From: Paraglaciecola mesophila
GTDB taxonomy: Bacteria; Pseudomonadota; Gammaproteobacteria; Enterobacterales; Alteromonadaceae
NCBI RefSeq assembly: GCF_009906955.1
Contig: NZ_CP047656.1
Span: 1 to 64,000, forward strand
Length of the DNA stretch: 64,000 bases
Direction of reading: 5' to 3'
Shown here: piece after piece, positions 57,861 to 63,938 of the stretch
Layout of the letters: every line of letters starts with the position of its first letter
How positions within the stretch are numbered: the stretch's first letter is position 1
Position numbers and translations under genes: made by a program
Notes under the pieces: model-generated
The model's input: only the letters and a program-made list of their open reading frames with translations
The model's database searches: none
What the model was told of the DNA's origin: nothing

Positions 57861-57890
57861 TTTTCAATACTCTTCAATACTCTTCAATAC
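57861..57890 (+). repeat. Three 10-bp direct repeats
   Basis: TTTTCAATAC followed by two copies of TCTTCAATAC. A short tandem array in a 304-base gap (57791-58094); no spacers, so not CRISPR. Confidence 0.7.
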
Positions 57891-57970
57891 GAGCAATTTG
57901 TTAGTCGCTTCGGCCTAACCCTACTACCCTCACGTTTACTTAACAGCCTTTTAAGGTTGTATTTATATTA

Positions 57971-58019
57971 AACAATCAATTTTGGTTGTTAAGTCAATTA
58001 ACAACCAAAATTGATTGTT
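57971..58019. promoter_or_regulatory. Perfect 22-bp inverted repeat; probable operator of the SatD-DUF3307 pair
   Basis: Two arms (57971-57992 and 57998-58019) are perfect reverse complements, with a five-base GTCAA centre. Each arm is itself a near-palindrome built from AACAAYCAA half-sites, so the block contains four half-sites: AACAATCAA, its partner TTGGTTGTT, AACAACCAA and TTGATTGTT. It lies 76 bases before the SatD ATG. An operator for a dimeric regulator is the simplest reading; an RNA hairpin is also possible. Confidence 0.65.
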
Positions 58020-58094
58020 CTCTTGCGTGTTCACTCTGGTTCGTCGTAAACTCGATACCCTAATTGAACGAAATATACGCATTAAGGCTCGAAT

Positions 58095-58727
58095 ATGATC
58101 GCTGTATTGACCGGAGATTTGGTAGATTCAACGGCTATGTCCCTAGAAGATTATCAGCTTGCAGTGGATATAATGGAGAAATACTTAGCAAAATGCCAAG
58201 CGCGTTTTAATACCCAAGGTGAGATTTATCGCGGTGATAGTTTACAACTCATATTTAAACATCCACAACACGCAATGCGTGCAGCGATTGAACTGAGAAG
58301 CCTACTTTTTAGTGCTGAAAATACTCAACAACCTTTAGGGATCACCTTATCAATTGGTTTAGGGGAGCAACTTATTGACGGCGATAAGCCTAGCGTATCA
58401 CAAGGCAGTGCTTTCACTTTGTCAGGCAGGGGATTAGACAATACGCCTAGGGGGCATATTAGCTTACATCACGAAAGTACCGCCTTTTACGATGCATTAG
58501 TATTAGCGACGAAATTTTTAGATAGTGTGTTGTATTCACATACACAGAAGCAAGCACAAGTGCTTTATCATTATTTAAGTATGGACTTTCCTACTCACAC
58601 CCAATTAGCTAAGGCAATAAGCACCAGCCAACAAAATGTGACAAAGCATTTAGCACGTATCGGAGCCGATTTAATCAAAGCCTATGTGGTGTTTTTTGAG
58701 GAAAAATTAACTAAGGAAGGTGAATAA
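58095..58727 (+). CDS. SatD family protein with C-terminal helix-turn-helix
   Basis: 210 residues. The N-terminal part has GDLVDSTAMSLEDYQLAVDIMEKYL and IYRGDSLQLIFKHPQHAMRAAIELRSLL, typical of the SatD family and reminiscent of a nucleotide-cyclase-like fold (GD near the start, a second GDS). The C-terminal ~50 residues (THTQLAKAISTSQQNVTKHLARIGADLIKAYV) form a likely DNA-binding HTH. It could repress its own operon through the inverted repeat just upstream. The stop overlaps the next gene by one base. Confidence 0.85.
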   Translation: MIAVLTGDLVDSTAMSLEDYQLAVDIMEKYLAKCQARFNTQGEIYRGDSLQLIFKHPQHAMRAAIELRSLLFSAENTQQPLGITLSIGLGEQLIDGDKPSVSQGSAFTLSGRGLDNTPRGHISLHHESTAFYDALVLATKFLDSVLYSHTQKQAQVLYHYLSMDFPTHTQLAKAISTSQQNVTKHLARIGADLIKAYVVFFEEKLTKEGE

Positions 58728-59446
58728 TGACGCTATTTTTATTGATGATTGTGGCTCATGTATTAGGGGATTTTTATCTACAAAAAGGCCAATGGGTGGC
58801 GTGTAGGAATACCCATCATTATGCTTCATGGGGCTTGTGTAAACATATTCTGTCACATATTGGTTTGCTGGTTATTGCCTTATGGTTGGCAGGAGAGTTA
58901 AGCGTAAAAGGCTGGATAGCGATTGTCTTAATAGGGTTTTCTCATCTGCTTATTGATATATGGAAGTCCTATCAAGCAGATAAGTTGGTTTATTTTTTAC
59001 TAGATCAATTTTTTCATGTATTGATTGTTGCACTGGCAGCATGGGGGCTGAACGGCGCTGATATCGAACTGATACAAAGTCAACTGCTTTCATTGTTGAC
59101 GGTAAAATATTTGGCTGTAGGCTGTGCCTATGTGATTGCGTGTCGCCCCGCCTCTATCGCTATCTCAATAGCCCTTAATCATTACACCGCGCAGCTGAAA
59201 GATAAGCAAACAGGCCTTGCCTCTGCAGGATGTTGGATCGGTTACTTAGAGCGCTGCCTGATTATATCGTTTATATTAATAGGGCAATTTGCCGGCGTCG
59301 GCTTTTTGTTGGCCGCGAAAACGATTTTTCGATTTGGCGACTTAACAAAAGAAAGAGACATGAAGTTGACTGAATATATGATGTTGGGCACATTACTGAG
59401 TTTTTCATGTGCATTGATGTTGGGTTGGTGGGTCAATCGACTTTAA
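58727..59446 (+). CDS. DUF3307 family membrane protein
   Basis: 239 residues with about six hydrophobic helices; the DUF3307 start is LMIVAHVLGDFYLQKGQWVACRN, followed by KHILSHIGLLVIALW and FSHLLIDIWKSYQADKLVYFLLDQFFHV. The His-Asp residues in the first helices (AHVLGDF; SHLLIDIWK; DQFFH) are conserved and could bind a metal within the membrane. It overlaps the SatD stop by one base, the usual SatD-DUF3307 pairing. Function unknown. Confidence 0.88.
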   Translation: MTLFLLMIVAHVLGDFYLQKGQWVACRNTHHYASWGLCKHILSHIGLLVIALWLAGELSVKGWIAIVLIGFSHLLIDIWKSYQADKLVYFLLDQFFHVLIVALAAWGLNGADIELIQSQLLSLLTVKYLAVGCAYVIACRPASIAISIALNHYTAQLKDKQTGLASAGCWIGYLERCLIISFILIGQFAGVGFLLAAKTIFRFGDLTKERDMKLTEYMMLGTLLSFSCALMLGWWVNRL

Positions 59447-59888: not shown

Positions 59889-61328
59889 CTAACTTAACTC
59901 GTGTACGCGCACACAATTTTTTCCAGCGTGCTTGGCTTCATATAACGCATCATCTGCCACTTTAATCAATCGCTCCAGTGAACGAGCTTGCGTTGTATAG
60001 GTAACGCCAAAGCTCGCAGAAACGGATAAACTTTCTTCATCGACTAGTTTTAATGGGTGTTGGGCAATTTTTGTACAGGTGCGTTGGGCGATGCTTTTGG
60101 CTTTTTCGAGACTTGTTGCGGGTAACAAGATAACGAATTCTTCACCGCCCCAGCGGGCAATAGCATCATGTTCTCGCAACTCACTTTGCAGTGATTGCGC
60201 AATTTCAATCAATACTTTGTCACCTACATTGTGCCCACGAGTATCATTAATGCGTTTGAAATTATCTACATCAACCATAATTAGGCTAGCGGCTTGATTG
60301 GCCCTAGCGACTTTGTCAAAACGCCATTGCAAATGCGCTCGATTATGCAACTGTGTTAGAGGATCAAGTTGATGTTTTTTGGCTGACTCATGTTCAAAAA
60401 AGCGAATAATAAGATGCGCTGTGACAAACACCACAAAAATAATCAATAAAACGAATGATGTATGACTGGTATAAGCATGGGTACTTGCGTCTTTACGCGA
60501 TGAAAGGGGGGTAATTAGGTACAATTTCCAGTGTAATGCTTTTAAGTCGATTTGAGCAATTAAGCTGGTGAAATCTGCCGTTTTGACAATCGTGTTATTT
60601 AAACTAGGCAAGGTTTTCTGCTGTGGTGATAGAGCCTGAAACCAAGATAATTGCTCGAGTGACAAAATGCGTTTTCCGTCGGCTAAAAGTTCTGGATCTG
60701 ACGCCAATACAACGTCGTCATTATGATCCACGAACACAAAATCATAACCAAATGAATCCTTATAGCTATCAAAGGCTTCTAAAAAAGTTTTCAAACGCTT
60801 ACCCACGCCAATAAATCCTAAAAATGTGCCTTGTTCACTAAACACCTTCACATCAAAATAAATATGAATATCTTGCCTATTACCTAGCGCTGCTGCGACA
60901 TTCATAGATTGTTGCTTAATTCTAAAATACCATTCAACTTTCCCCTCTTTTAACGCTAATGTGCTGCCGTCAGCATTATATTGCTTGCGGCTGTTTTCAC
61001 TGGCCACAAAAAAGTCCATGTTGTAGTCCACGGACATACGCTTAACCAACTCCAGTATGGCGGTATCGTCAATGATTTTGGCAGCCATTAGGCGGCGTAA
61101 GGTTTGTGTATTGGCAAGAATTTGTGCGGTGTGCAGGGGCTTTACTAATTCCTCGGTGACCAAGTCAAAAGCAGGGGTCATAGATTGTTGTTGTAAGCGG
61201 CTTTGTTCTTCCACCGAGTCTGACAGGGTGAAGTATCCGCTGATCGCAACAGCAATCGCCATAATAAACAGCATGATAGGCACTTTAAAGCCAACAGGGG
61301 AAAAATGAGTTCGCTGTGAAGTGCTCAA
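59889..61328 (-). CDS. Membrane diguanylate cyclase with periplasmic Cache-like sensor
   Basis: 479 residues. A first helix (VPIMLFIMAIAVAISGYF) is followed by a periplasmic sensor of ~240 residues with Cache-like features (SVDYNMDFFVASENSRKQYNADGS, FDVKVFSEQGTFLGFIGVG, VFVDHNDDVVLASDPELL), a second helix (FVLLIIFVVFVTAHLIIRFF) and a C-terminal GGDEF domain (~320-479). The active site reads RWGGEEFVILLP, and an inhibitory I-site REHD sits five residues before it. It should make c-di-GMP, with product inhibition, in response to a periplasmic ligand. Confidence 0.93.
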   Translation of the reverse strand: MSTSQRTHFSPVGFKVPIMLFIMAIAVAISGYFTLSDSVEEQSRLQQQSMTPAFDLVTEELVKPLHTAQILANTQTLRRLMAAKIIDDTAILELVKRMSVDYNMDFFVASENSRKQYNADGSTLALKEGKVEWYFRIKQQSMNVAAALGNRQDIHIYFDVKVFSEQGTFLGFIGVGKRLKTFLEAFDSYKDSFGYDFVFVDHNDDVVLASDPELLADGKRILSLEQLSWFQALSPQQKTLPSLNNTIVKTADFTSLIAQIDLKALHWKLYLITPLSSRKDASTHAYTSHTSFVLLIIFVVFVTAHLIIRFFEHESAKKHQLDPLTQLHNRAHLQWRFDKVARANQAASLIMVDVDNFKRINDTRGHNVGDKVLIEIAQSLQSELREHDAIARWGGEEFVILLPATSLEKAKSIAQRTCTKIAQHPLKLVDEESLSVSASFGVTYTTQARSLERLIKVADDALYEAKHAGKNCVRVHELS

Positions 61329-62711: not shown

Positions 62712-63938
62712 TTACTCGGGTTGCTTCGCAAGCTGCACGCAGTTACGGCCCGCTTTTTTCGCTGTATATAAGGCGATATCGGCCTGCTTCATGATATCAC
62801 TGAACTGATTGAACTCGCTGCTACGCTTTGCGATCCCAAAGCTGGCGGTAATTTTAACTGTTTTACCTTGATTTGGTTTGCCAGTACCACGCTTAGGGGC
62901 CTTCTTAGGACGGGGTTTTTCACGTAAGGCGATGGGATAATCTGCGATAAGTTGCCGAATTTGCTCTACAAAAGGCAAGGCTTGCTGCGGGGTTTTTCGA
63001 GGGAATATCATAATAAATTCCTCACCACCAAAGCGAAACGCTTTGCCACCTCCGCCGATTTTATTTAACCGACTGGCTACCAATTTTAGCACTTCGTCAC
63101 CAACGTCATGACCGTAGGTATCGTTAAACTTCTTAAAATGATCTATATCTGCCATAACCACCACATATTTACGTCCAAGGGTGTTTACGTATTGCATTAA
63201 CGCTCTACGTGAGGGGACACCTGTCAGTTCATCCTTAAACGCCATGTTAAAGCTGTCTTTTAACATGGCGTAGACAAAGCTTGTGGCTAAAACGAGGGTT
63301 AAAACGCTATGCAATTCAAAGCCCGAATAAGCTGGCATAATGGCAACGAGTAGGGCGCCTAAAAGCAATGCTGCATGATTATTATCCGTCACAAAGATAA
63401 AGCGCAACAAACAGGTAACCAATGCCAACCCAACCAACAGCCACTCTAATGGGGTGTATATGGCATTCAATCCAGGGGCAATCTGGTTAGCAAAGGTATA
63501 CATTGGACTCAGATGGTTTTGGACTAGCGCTGGCAAGTACGTTAATGCAGCCCAACTTAGCACAGTGACAACGAACAGTTTTACCAAGGTTACCGCCACA
63601 TTGTGCCCTGAAAAACCGCTGTCTTTAACACAACTTAAATAACTGAGTATCATGAGCACGATTAGCGGTAAACGGCGGCTAAATTCAGACGAGAGGTCTA
63701 TTTTTTCATGGCCTATAAGCAGTAATATAGCCAGCATGACGCAGCACCAAAAAAGTCGGCTTCGGCCAAATTGTAGCGCTATTACTGCACTTACACCTAA
63801 TGCAACGTAGCCAATCCACGGCAATGGTAGAAACCAGTCACGTAACAGCGGCCGCTGGGCCTCTACGAAATAAACAACTAAGATAAACAGCGCCGCATAA
63901 ACGAAGAGGTGGCGAAAAATAGCGTACAAATAAGTCAA
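62712..63938 (-). CDS. Membrane diguanylate cyclase (GGDEF, no I-site)
   Basis: 408 residues from TTG 63938, the only usable start in this frame near the window edge. The first ~225 residues contain about seven hydrophobic helices with short loops, a MASE-like integral sensor. The GGDEF domain follows (~245-408): FGGEEFIMIFPR around 302-310, DIDHFKKFNDTYGHDVGDEVL and SFGIAKRSSEFNQFSDIMKQADIALYTAKKAGRN. The position for an RxxD I-site is not conserved (LNKIGGGGKA). It is upstream of and coupled to the glycosyltransferase gene. A start further upstream outside the window cannot be fully excluded. Confidence 0.9.
   Translation of the reverse strand: MTYLYAIFRHLFVYAALFILVVYFVEAQRPLLRDWFLPLPWIGYVALGVSAVIALQFGRSRLFWCCVMLAILLLIGHEKIDLSSEFSRRLPLIVLMILSYLSCVKDSGFSGHNVAVTLVKLFVVTVLSWAALTYLPALVQNHLSPMYTFANQIAPGLNAIYTPLEWLLVGLALVTCLLRFIFVTDNNHAALLLGALLVAIMPAYSGFELHSVLTLVLATSFVYAMLKDSFNMAFKDELTGVPSRRALMQYVNTLGRKYVVVMADIDHFKKFNDTYGHDVGDEVLKLVASRLNKIGGGGKAFRFGGEEFIMIFPRKTPQQALPFVEQIRQLIADYPIALREKPRPKKAPKRGTGKPNQGKTVKITASFGIAKRSSEFNQFSDIMKQADIALYTAKKAGRNCVQLAKQPE

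Follow-up and report, generated by a model that had tools for sequence, protein, structure and literature searches.

Organisation of the satD-like locus

The window analysed here is a stretch of 64,000 nucleotides at the start of the Paraglaciecola mesophila contig NZ_CP047656.1. It carries a gene for a SatD-like protein with a C-terminal helix-turn-helix (HTH), followed by a gene for a DUF3307 membrane protein and preceded by an inverted repeat (Table 1). The repeat described by the first-pass annotation was present as a perfect 22-bp repeat: its arms (57971-57992 and 57998-58019) are complementary at 22 of 22 positions, are separated by a 5-nt spacer and lie 75 nt before the start of the satD-like gene. 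A search with the 20-mer AACAATCAATTTTGGTTGTT, allowing up to three mismatches, returned two places in the 64 kb, which were the two arms, as compared to a mean of 0.02 in shuffled sequences. The word AACAAYCAA was found six times in the window, four of them at the repeat (shuffles: mean 2.25, maximum 5). The four half-sites counted earlier were those of operator copies 2 and 3, and the weaker palindrome of copy 1 has to be added to them, which gives six half-sites in all.

Table 1. Features of the satD-like locus, in positions of the window
Feature	Position	Strand	Basis or remark
Operator copy 1, ACAGCCTTTTAAGGTTGT, weaker palindrome	57943..57960	+	Chain search and alignment; 29 bp before copy 2
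Operator copy 2, ACAATCAATTTTGGTTGT, core of the left arm	57972..57989	+	Repeat, 20-mer and chain searches
Operator copy 3, copy-2 site flipped, core of the right arm	58001..58018	-	Same searches and alignment
Reported inverted repeat	57971..58019		Both arms; scores as a hairpin on both strands
Candidate promoter TTGCGT-18-TAAACT	58023..58052	+	Directly 3' of the array; inferred from alignment
SatD-like protein, 210 aa	58095..58727	+	Predicted class III cyclase fold over about residues 1-145, plus C-terminal HTH
DUF3307 membrane protein, 239 aa	58727..59446	+	PF11750, E 4e-24

The membrane partner had been described as coupled, and indeed the start of its ORF overlaps the stop of the satD-like gene by one base; its match to PF11750 scored 85.5 bits against a cut-off of 23.

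Operator copies in close relatives

In the six close relatives that were aligned with the window, we found three 18-bp near-palindromes, variants of ACAAYC-6-GGTTGT, placed 29 bp apart and all in one orientation. In the window, copies 2 and 3 are exact reverse complements of each other, copy 3 being the flipped one, and it is this flip that creates the perfect inverted repeat; both the flipped copy and the perfect repeat occurred in the window genome alone among the seven sequences aligned. Since the operator site is nearly palindromic, the flip should cost little, and it may have originated from a template switch between copies 2 and 3. The inverted repeat reported earlier is thus present in the window but not conserved, and because the six relatives keep the array without the perfect repeat, we consider the fixed-pitch array to be the conserved element. 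The loci of the named relatives encode proteins with 96% (P. chathamensis) and 84% (P. mesophila) identity. Upstream of the array, TTCAATAC occurs three times at 10-bp steps (57863-57890), as compared to just one related stretch in L015, a near relative.

The pattern AACAAYCN4TTGGTTGTT, with at most one mismatch, was found at a single locus of the 5.04-Mb genome, namely the array before the satD-like gene, and with two mismatches the number of genome matches was at the level of the reversed-pattern control. The scan of the 5.04 Mb thus yielded no strong operators elsewhere above the control; the pattern is blind to weak sites, such as operator copy 1, which would escape it. With the same reservation for weak sites, we rejected the idea of a global regulator, as strong sites were confined to the gene's own promoter.

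A fixed-pitch array across the family

To follow the array in other genomes, satD-like matches were taken from 14 of 60 genomes of relatives, 120 of 295 of the family, 13 of 369 of the class and 70 of 394 of the order, the class and order counts including weak partial matches. From 136 loci, of which 7 (L050-L056) had no match, removal of duplicates reduced 129 proteins to 118, and a second batch of 50 loci (L143-L192) contributed 38 new proteins, for a total of 156 distinct satD-like genes. The pattern loci L137-L142 were left out, the order-level set leaves out G723, G1009 and the weak partial matches, and the array count does not cover G141, G109, G206, G273 and G293, fragments of G156, G291, G159 and G284, or the second places in G201 and G089.

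The core feature conserved among these genes is a set of about three 18-bp palindromes with a pitch of 28 or 29 bp; an array of two to five copies usually stands before the gene pair. With spacings of 24-36 bp allowed, 90 of the 118 upstream regions reached p<=0.01 and 106 reached p<=0.05 against 200 dinucleotide shuffles, as compared to 0/118 and 3/118, respectively, in the coding control (100 shuffles). Among the 172 spacings measured in this range, 28 bp was found 114 times and 29 bp 45 times. The preference was also seen when spacing was left free between 18 and 80 bp, in 84 genes non-redundant at 70% identity: the best pair of sites had a spacing of 28/29 bp in 44, and of 56-58 bp in 8, of the 72 upstream regions with any pair, as compared to 4.1% and 3.0% of the best pairs in shuffled sequences. 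Fifty of the 84 upstream regions (52 in a repeat run) reached p<=0.02, versus 2/84 in the coding control, and two flanking 260-bp controls gave 0/83 each at 28/29 bp and 1/83 each at p<=0.02. Arrays with the 28/29-bp pitch occur in several families of the order. The array upstream of satD-like genes is well supported by these comparisons, and a search for the half-site before homologues, as had been proposed, revealed operator arrays before most of them, with letters that differ by clade.

We also examined 14 remote loci from plasmid records and viral contigs, with half-site registers assigned by eye (L196 and L199 entered an earlier test only; L206 and L209 were outside the array test). An array with a 28/29-bp pitch reached p<=0.05 in nine of the 14. 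Vibrio lentus has an array of TTAGCC sites; in haloarchaea, the Haloplanus array is of the TTCGCC type, with the same array in its close sister Halorientalis, and that of Natronosalvus is of the ACAACC type. Enterobacter and Klebsiella plasmids carry TCAACC arrays with 17-bp sites (p 0.045 for Klebsiella), Segatella (Bacteroidota) has an array at the same pitch and p<=0.05, and arrays were found in the viral contigs L207, L208 and L210, with the L207 sites 230-260 nt before the assumed start. For the remaining five, Sphingomonas L194, Salinivibrio L195, Pseudomonas fragi L201, Fusobacterium L204 and Agrobacterium L205, no array was detected by the program; single or degenerate sites could be seen by eye in L201, L204 and L205. 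The stretch annotated as the N-terminus of the P. fragi SatD-like protein contains an operator-like palindrome (L201, 2390-2485), and the annotated start is for that reason probably too early. In Natronosalvus, the next gene encodes an unnamed protein of 149 aa and is not annotated as DUF3307.

Operator letters and the recognition helix

The letters of the half-site change by clade, with the variants ACAAYC, GCAAAY, GCAAYY, GCAAGC, GTAACY, TCACAT, GTTACA and TTAGCC, as well as ATACGY, TTCGCC (in the free-spacing set) and GGCC. We paired them with the recognition helix, which comprises residues 179-189 in the predicted model and carries Gln179-Gln180 in the window protein, for those genes whose array was usable (140 of 156). 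Gln180 was paired with C at base 2 in 42 of 45 cases and Arg179 with G at base 1 in 89 of 103. Eight genes had C2 without Gln180, all of the TCACNN type with Ser180, and the register may be inverted there; by eye, Arg179 stands with T1 and not with G1 in L191, L193 and L202.

Mutual information was highest for residue 180 and base 2, followed by residue 184 and base 5, then by residues 185, 191 and 190 with base 2 and residue 179 with base 1. That we single out residue 179 despite the higher ranks of 185, 190 and 191 is a choice, made on the recurrence of the base-1 pairing. On a quick tree built from the cyclase domain alone, Gln180 changed once within the order, and shared descent thus inflates the raw mutual information. 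For Arg179 and G1 the tree yielded three independent pairs, of which an average of 2.6 agreed with the pairing and 0.0 contradicted it, a number too small for significance. Operator similarity followed helix similarity when the similarity of the cyclase domain was controlled (partial r 0.34, 0/300 permutations), and the corresponding value for the cyclase domain with the helix controlled was 0.06.

At the remote loci, the archaeal helix RQQAVSKS goes with ACAACC sites and the phage helix TQQTISK with ACAGCC/ACAACC sites; these proteins are at most 27% and 33% identical, respectively, to the first set. Both helices have Gln179-Gln180, as in the window protein, and their sites are window-like. 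Taken as a comparison of sequences, the link between helix and operator is well supported. Since the letters of the site co-vary with the helix of the SatD-like protein, this protein very probably controls its own operon, and the autoregulation suggested by the first-pass annotation gains support from arrays that precede most homologues and change with the recognition helix.

Two further layouts were seen. L168 and L174 have longer, iteron-like GTAACA...GTTAC runs before satD-like genes with the helix VNRVSVNRS, and L103 has three palindromes of reverse layout (GTTACA...TGTAAC) upstream of an intact satD-like gene.

The SatD-like protein

The window protein did not match PF16264, the Pfam SatD model, at E<=1, nor did anything in its own genome or in the control genomes, and we therefore call it SatD-like. 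The model was matched by 23 of 79 aligned members of the family at E<=0.01 (best 3.2e-8). The earlier description of a SatD protein ending in an HTH holds for the C-terminal HTH; the family name is not borne out by the window protein by itself.

A profile of 79 relatives matched Ma1120 over the N-terminus (E 3.3e-4); over the C-terminus it gave weak matches to several HTH proteins. In the predicted model (pLDDT 95) the N-terminus has a class III cyclase fold: it matched class III cyclases, with Foldseek E from 4.9e-6 to 8e-5 for the best 50 matches listed, and Rv1625c superposed with Z 11.3 and an rmsd of 3.0 over 142 residues, so that the suggested fold comparison came out in favour of a cyclase-like domain. 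GGDEF and CRISPR Cmr2 palm domains were tied with class III cyclases within 1 Z unit; for this reason, the assignment to the palm superfamily is firm, and that to class III is based on Foldseek rank and the sequence match.

Asp8 is conserved in 155 of 156 proteins and Asp48 in 153 of 156; both align to Asp residues of Ma1120 and are, we assume, the metal-binding Asp of class III cyclases. The motif G-x-x-V-N-x-A-A-R-L of class III cyclases carries the transition-state Asn and Arg. At slot 108, presumed by eye to be the Asn slot, Asn was found in 2 and V, I or T in 141 of 156 proteins, and Arg112 is kept in 102 of 156. We do not file the protein as a cyclase, because the Asn slot is lost and the Arg is variable; with the metal Asp residues kept, the N-terminus probably binds a metal and a nucleotide and is not a normal cyclase. 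The term nucleotide-cyclase-like is thus appropriate for the fold and both Asp, but without the presumed catalytic Asn, "sensor" fits better.

The DUF3307 partner

Of the 156 satD-like genes, 150 have a DUF3307 gene downstream in the same orientation, no more than 300 nt away, and all 69 partners aligned matched PF11750 at E<=1. In this alignment His11, Asp15, Gln19, His40, His44, His73, Asp77, Lys80, Asp93 and His97 are at least 90% conserved; such a set would be in keeping with a metal site inside the membrane. The predicted model of the window DUF3307 gave no clear hit among solved structures (best Foldseek E 1.9; best Z 6.9 over 97 residues, which is a common level), and a missed or lower-ranked fold is possible in such a search.

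The two genes are also found apart. Eight genomes of one genus of the same family (g6) have a DUF3307 match and no satD-like match, and no satD-like gene was found nearby in the six of these genomes that were fetched or at the second DUF3307 places of two more. DUF3307 is therefore not always harmful without satD. In these loci (L221-L226, L228 and L230) an RNase J-like gene, recognised by eye, is close to DUF3307 in L221, L222, L223 and L226. Conversely, L113, L122, L123 and L136 have a satD-like gene without DUF3307. In the last three the satD-like gene is followed by what is, by eye, a nadC-like gene, and in L122 and L123 GTAATT/GTAACT sites 28 bp apart are still there. DUF3307 is fragmentary beside satD in G301, G027 and G173, with stops in the fragments of G301, the genome of L103.

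Distribution and neighbourhood

The pair is patchily distributed: besides the window's own genome, 8 of 21 genomes of the genus have a satD-like match. In the viral contigs L206 and L208 it stands beside terminase-like and lysozyme-like genes (translations by eye); satD is cut by the contig end in L206, and L209 has DUF3307 without a satD match. The window DUF3307 had no match among INPHARED phage records, and in IMG/VR a DUF3307 was encoded in 5 of 47 candidate stretches. On a 4.4-kb ColRNAI-type Klebsiella plasmid (L203, 1-3335), the SatD-like/DUF3307 pair makes up two of five annotated features. The pair is also found on other plasmids, and six plasmid records of 3770 bp, five from Klebsiella and one from E. 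coli, had partial DUF3307 matches.

In Sphingomonas L194 the pair adjoins genes annotated as TIR, Pycsar effector and cyclase. Recurrent chromosomal neighbours are, by eye, housekeeping-like and not defence genes, with a helicase-like gene in 11 loci. An "empty site" comparison of the 3.2-kb flanks with six genomes of the genus without satD recovered DUF3565 without the window's other neighbours. PADLOC gave no convincing match: the best for the SatD-like protein was HEC-02B at E 0.022 over residues 136-175, and DUF3307 had none at E<=1. A role of the pair in defence or exclusion is possible. Close downstream of the pair in the window, the minus strand carries two GGDEF-like genes (GGEEF, by eye) at 59889-61328 and 62712-63938.

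Promoter-like sites around the array

The TTGC and TAmACT elements of the candidate promoter are invariant in all seven sequences aligned, i.e. the window and its six close relatives. A consensus scan did not call this candidate and called TTAACA-18-TATATT at 57940-57969, over copy 1, instead; in the region as a whole it found five promoter-like sites, with 5.8 expected. Across the family, the top promoter-like site overlapped the array in 105 of 143 upstream regions as compared to 75.5 expected with uniform placement, a count to be read with the caveat that the operator words themselves resemble -35 boxes. In L094, L105 and L111 the final operator site ends at the start codon, with the starts as we assigned them.

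Proposed mechanism and alternatives

Considering the observed array, its pitch, the coupling of the two genes and that of helix and operator, together with the predicted fold, we find it rather probable that the SatD-like protein is a nucleotide-sensing, cooperative autoregulator of its own operon, including the DUF3307 partner. In such a mechanism, a dimer bound through its HTH would occupy each 18-bp palindrome of the two-to-five-site array, and contact between neighbouring dimers would fix the centre-to-centre distance at 28 or 29 bp. This distance corresponds to 2.7 helical turns, and neighbouring dimers would be off the same face, with contacts that wind around the DNA; that three 28-bp steps make eight turns is arithmetic, not evidence. 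The array would be filled cooperatively and the operon would switch sharply. The cyclase-like N-terminus would bind a nucleotide with a metal and act mainly as a sensor or a dimer lock, not as a cyclase; the nucleotide would strengthen or break the dimer contacts and in this way set the levels of satD and DUF3307 together, with the co-translated DUF3307 membrane protein as the output.

Regarding the sign of regulation, repression is more likely than activation, because in L094, L105 and L111 the array reaches the assigned start codon with its last site. The same autoregulator and array could instead work as an activator, with a nucleotide signal (stress or phage) leading to recruitment of RNA polymerase and DUF3307 being turned on. 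Positions just upstream of a promoter are also used by activators, and because the window-clade array precedes a conserved promoter-like motif, with copy 3 ending a few bases 5' of TTGC/TAmACT, activation keeps some weight, though we judge it unlikely. Besides the sites at the assigned start codons, the excess of top promoter-like sites over the array argues against it, with the caveat on -35-like operator words given above, as does the promoter-like site over copy 1, listed in a scan that found such sites at chance frequency. In Streptococcus pyogenes, satD is reported to be the only accessory gene to rank in the top quarter for essentiality, and it is present in 178 of 249 genomes (PMC11323703). 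A gene that is essential and yet accessory suits a repressor of something harmful, which again speaks against the activator; the Streptococcus satD may differ from the family studied here. The same feature would suit a toxin-antitoxin or anti-phage module of two genes, with SatD keeping a membrane effector silent, a proposal compatible with our preferred autoregulator that we regard as possible rather than probable. The presence of the pair on viral contigs and plasmids, and its patchy occurrence in the genus, point in this direction. The finding of satD-like and DUF3307 genes each alone argues against a simple toxin-antitoxin system, and the strict form of this proposal loses weight because genomes of one genus have DUF3307 but no satD; nor do the housekeeping-like neighbours and the lack of a matching PADLOC model favour a module of this kind.

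A more distant option is a catalytically active N-terminus, either a cyclase or a nucleotide synthetase, that makes a product acting on DUF3307, as in Pycsar, with the HTH setting the level only. The cyclase fold with both metal Asp nearly invariant, the Pycsar-like order of an enzyme gene and a membrane protein gene, and the annotated neighbours in L194 are consistent with it, but the replacement of Asn at slot 108, the variable Arg112 and the absence of a convincing PADLOC match make it improbable. The inverted repeat might also be a terminator or an RNA hairpin of the upstream transcript, the array being incidental: it scores as a stem of 20 pairs, followed on either strand by a T-rich tail, and three terminator-like sites were found versus 1.4 expected. 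This explanation, which we reject, is highly improbable, as the perfect repeat is present in one of seven aligned sequences and the six close relatives keep the array without it; moreover, the array stands before satD, is absent from the flanking controls, has letters that follow the HTH, and recurs in archaea and prophages. The cooperative autoregulator therefore remains our preferred explanation.

Relation to known systems and implications

The SatD-like protein resembles the SatD family (PF16264) in length (the model has 211 positions) and layout, haloarchaeal proteins annotated as SatD have an array of the same kind, and DUF3307 lies directly downstream in the window as in annotated pairs of that family; it differs in that the window protein itself has no match to the model. 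With the class III cyclases Ma1120, Rv1625c and Cya2 it shares the predicted fold over about residues 1-145 and both metal Asp, but it lacks the presumed transition-state Asn, has a variable Arg, and combines the fold with a DNA-binding HTH and an operator array of its own. The partner clearly belongs with DUF3307 (PF11750), and no solved structure resembles its model. Pycsar consists of the PycC cyclase and a membrane effector; the order of a cyclase-fold gene and a membrane-protein gene is alike, whereas the SatD-like protein has an HTH, lacks the presumed catalytic Asn and has no PADLOC match. Autoregulators with operator arrays are known, e.g. iteron-binding or plasmid partition regulators, and the co-evolution of regulator and operator has reportedly been studied for IclR. 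Like these, the SatD-like genes have several palindromes before the gene itself, and helix and site change together; unlike them, they keep one 28/29-bp pitch with the letters replaced, in bacteria, archaea and phages.

In the literature covered, which did not extend to most subscription papers, we found no description of the array or of the operators of any SatD. One article calls SatD an acid-resistance protein (PMC10326533), and in another source DUF3307 appears as a phage ORF.

More tentatively, the family may represent a pan-prokaryotic class in which a nucleotide sensor with a cyclase fold polymerises on a 28/29-bp array at its own promoter, the filament being opened or closed by the nucleotide and a membrane effector, found on prophages and plasmids as well, being released. 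Neighbouring dimers that touch, perhaps by way of the dimer interface of the cyclase domain, would set the pitch, which stays the same across the domains of life, and the sequence would be rewritten by a readable code from residues 179, 180 and 184 to bases 1, 2 and 5. We hold this extension to be possible, with less confidence than the autoregulator itself.

Through the analysis, a widespread, uncharacterised gene pair becomes a switch open to testing, for which there is a predicted DNA target, a putative specificity code and a likely class of ligand. It also offers a natural series of regulators and operators, with spacing fixed and letters varied, that would be useful for studying the evolution of HTH specificity. 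If SatD is a repressor, this could explain why satD of Streptococcus pyogenes is essential though accessory, and DUF3307 would then be the interesting effector.
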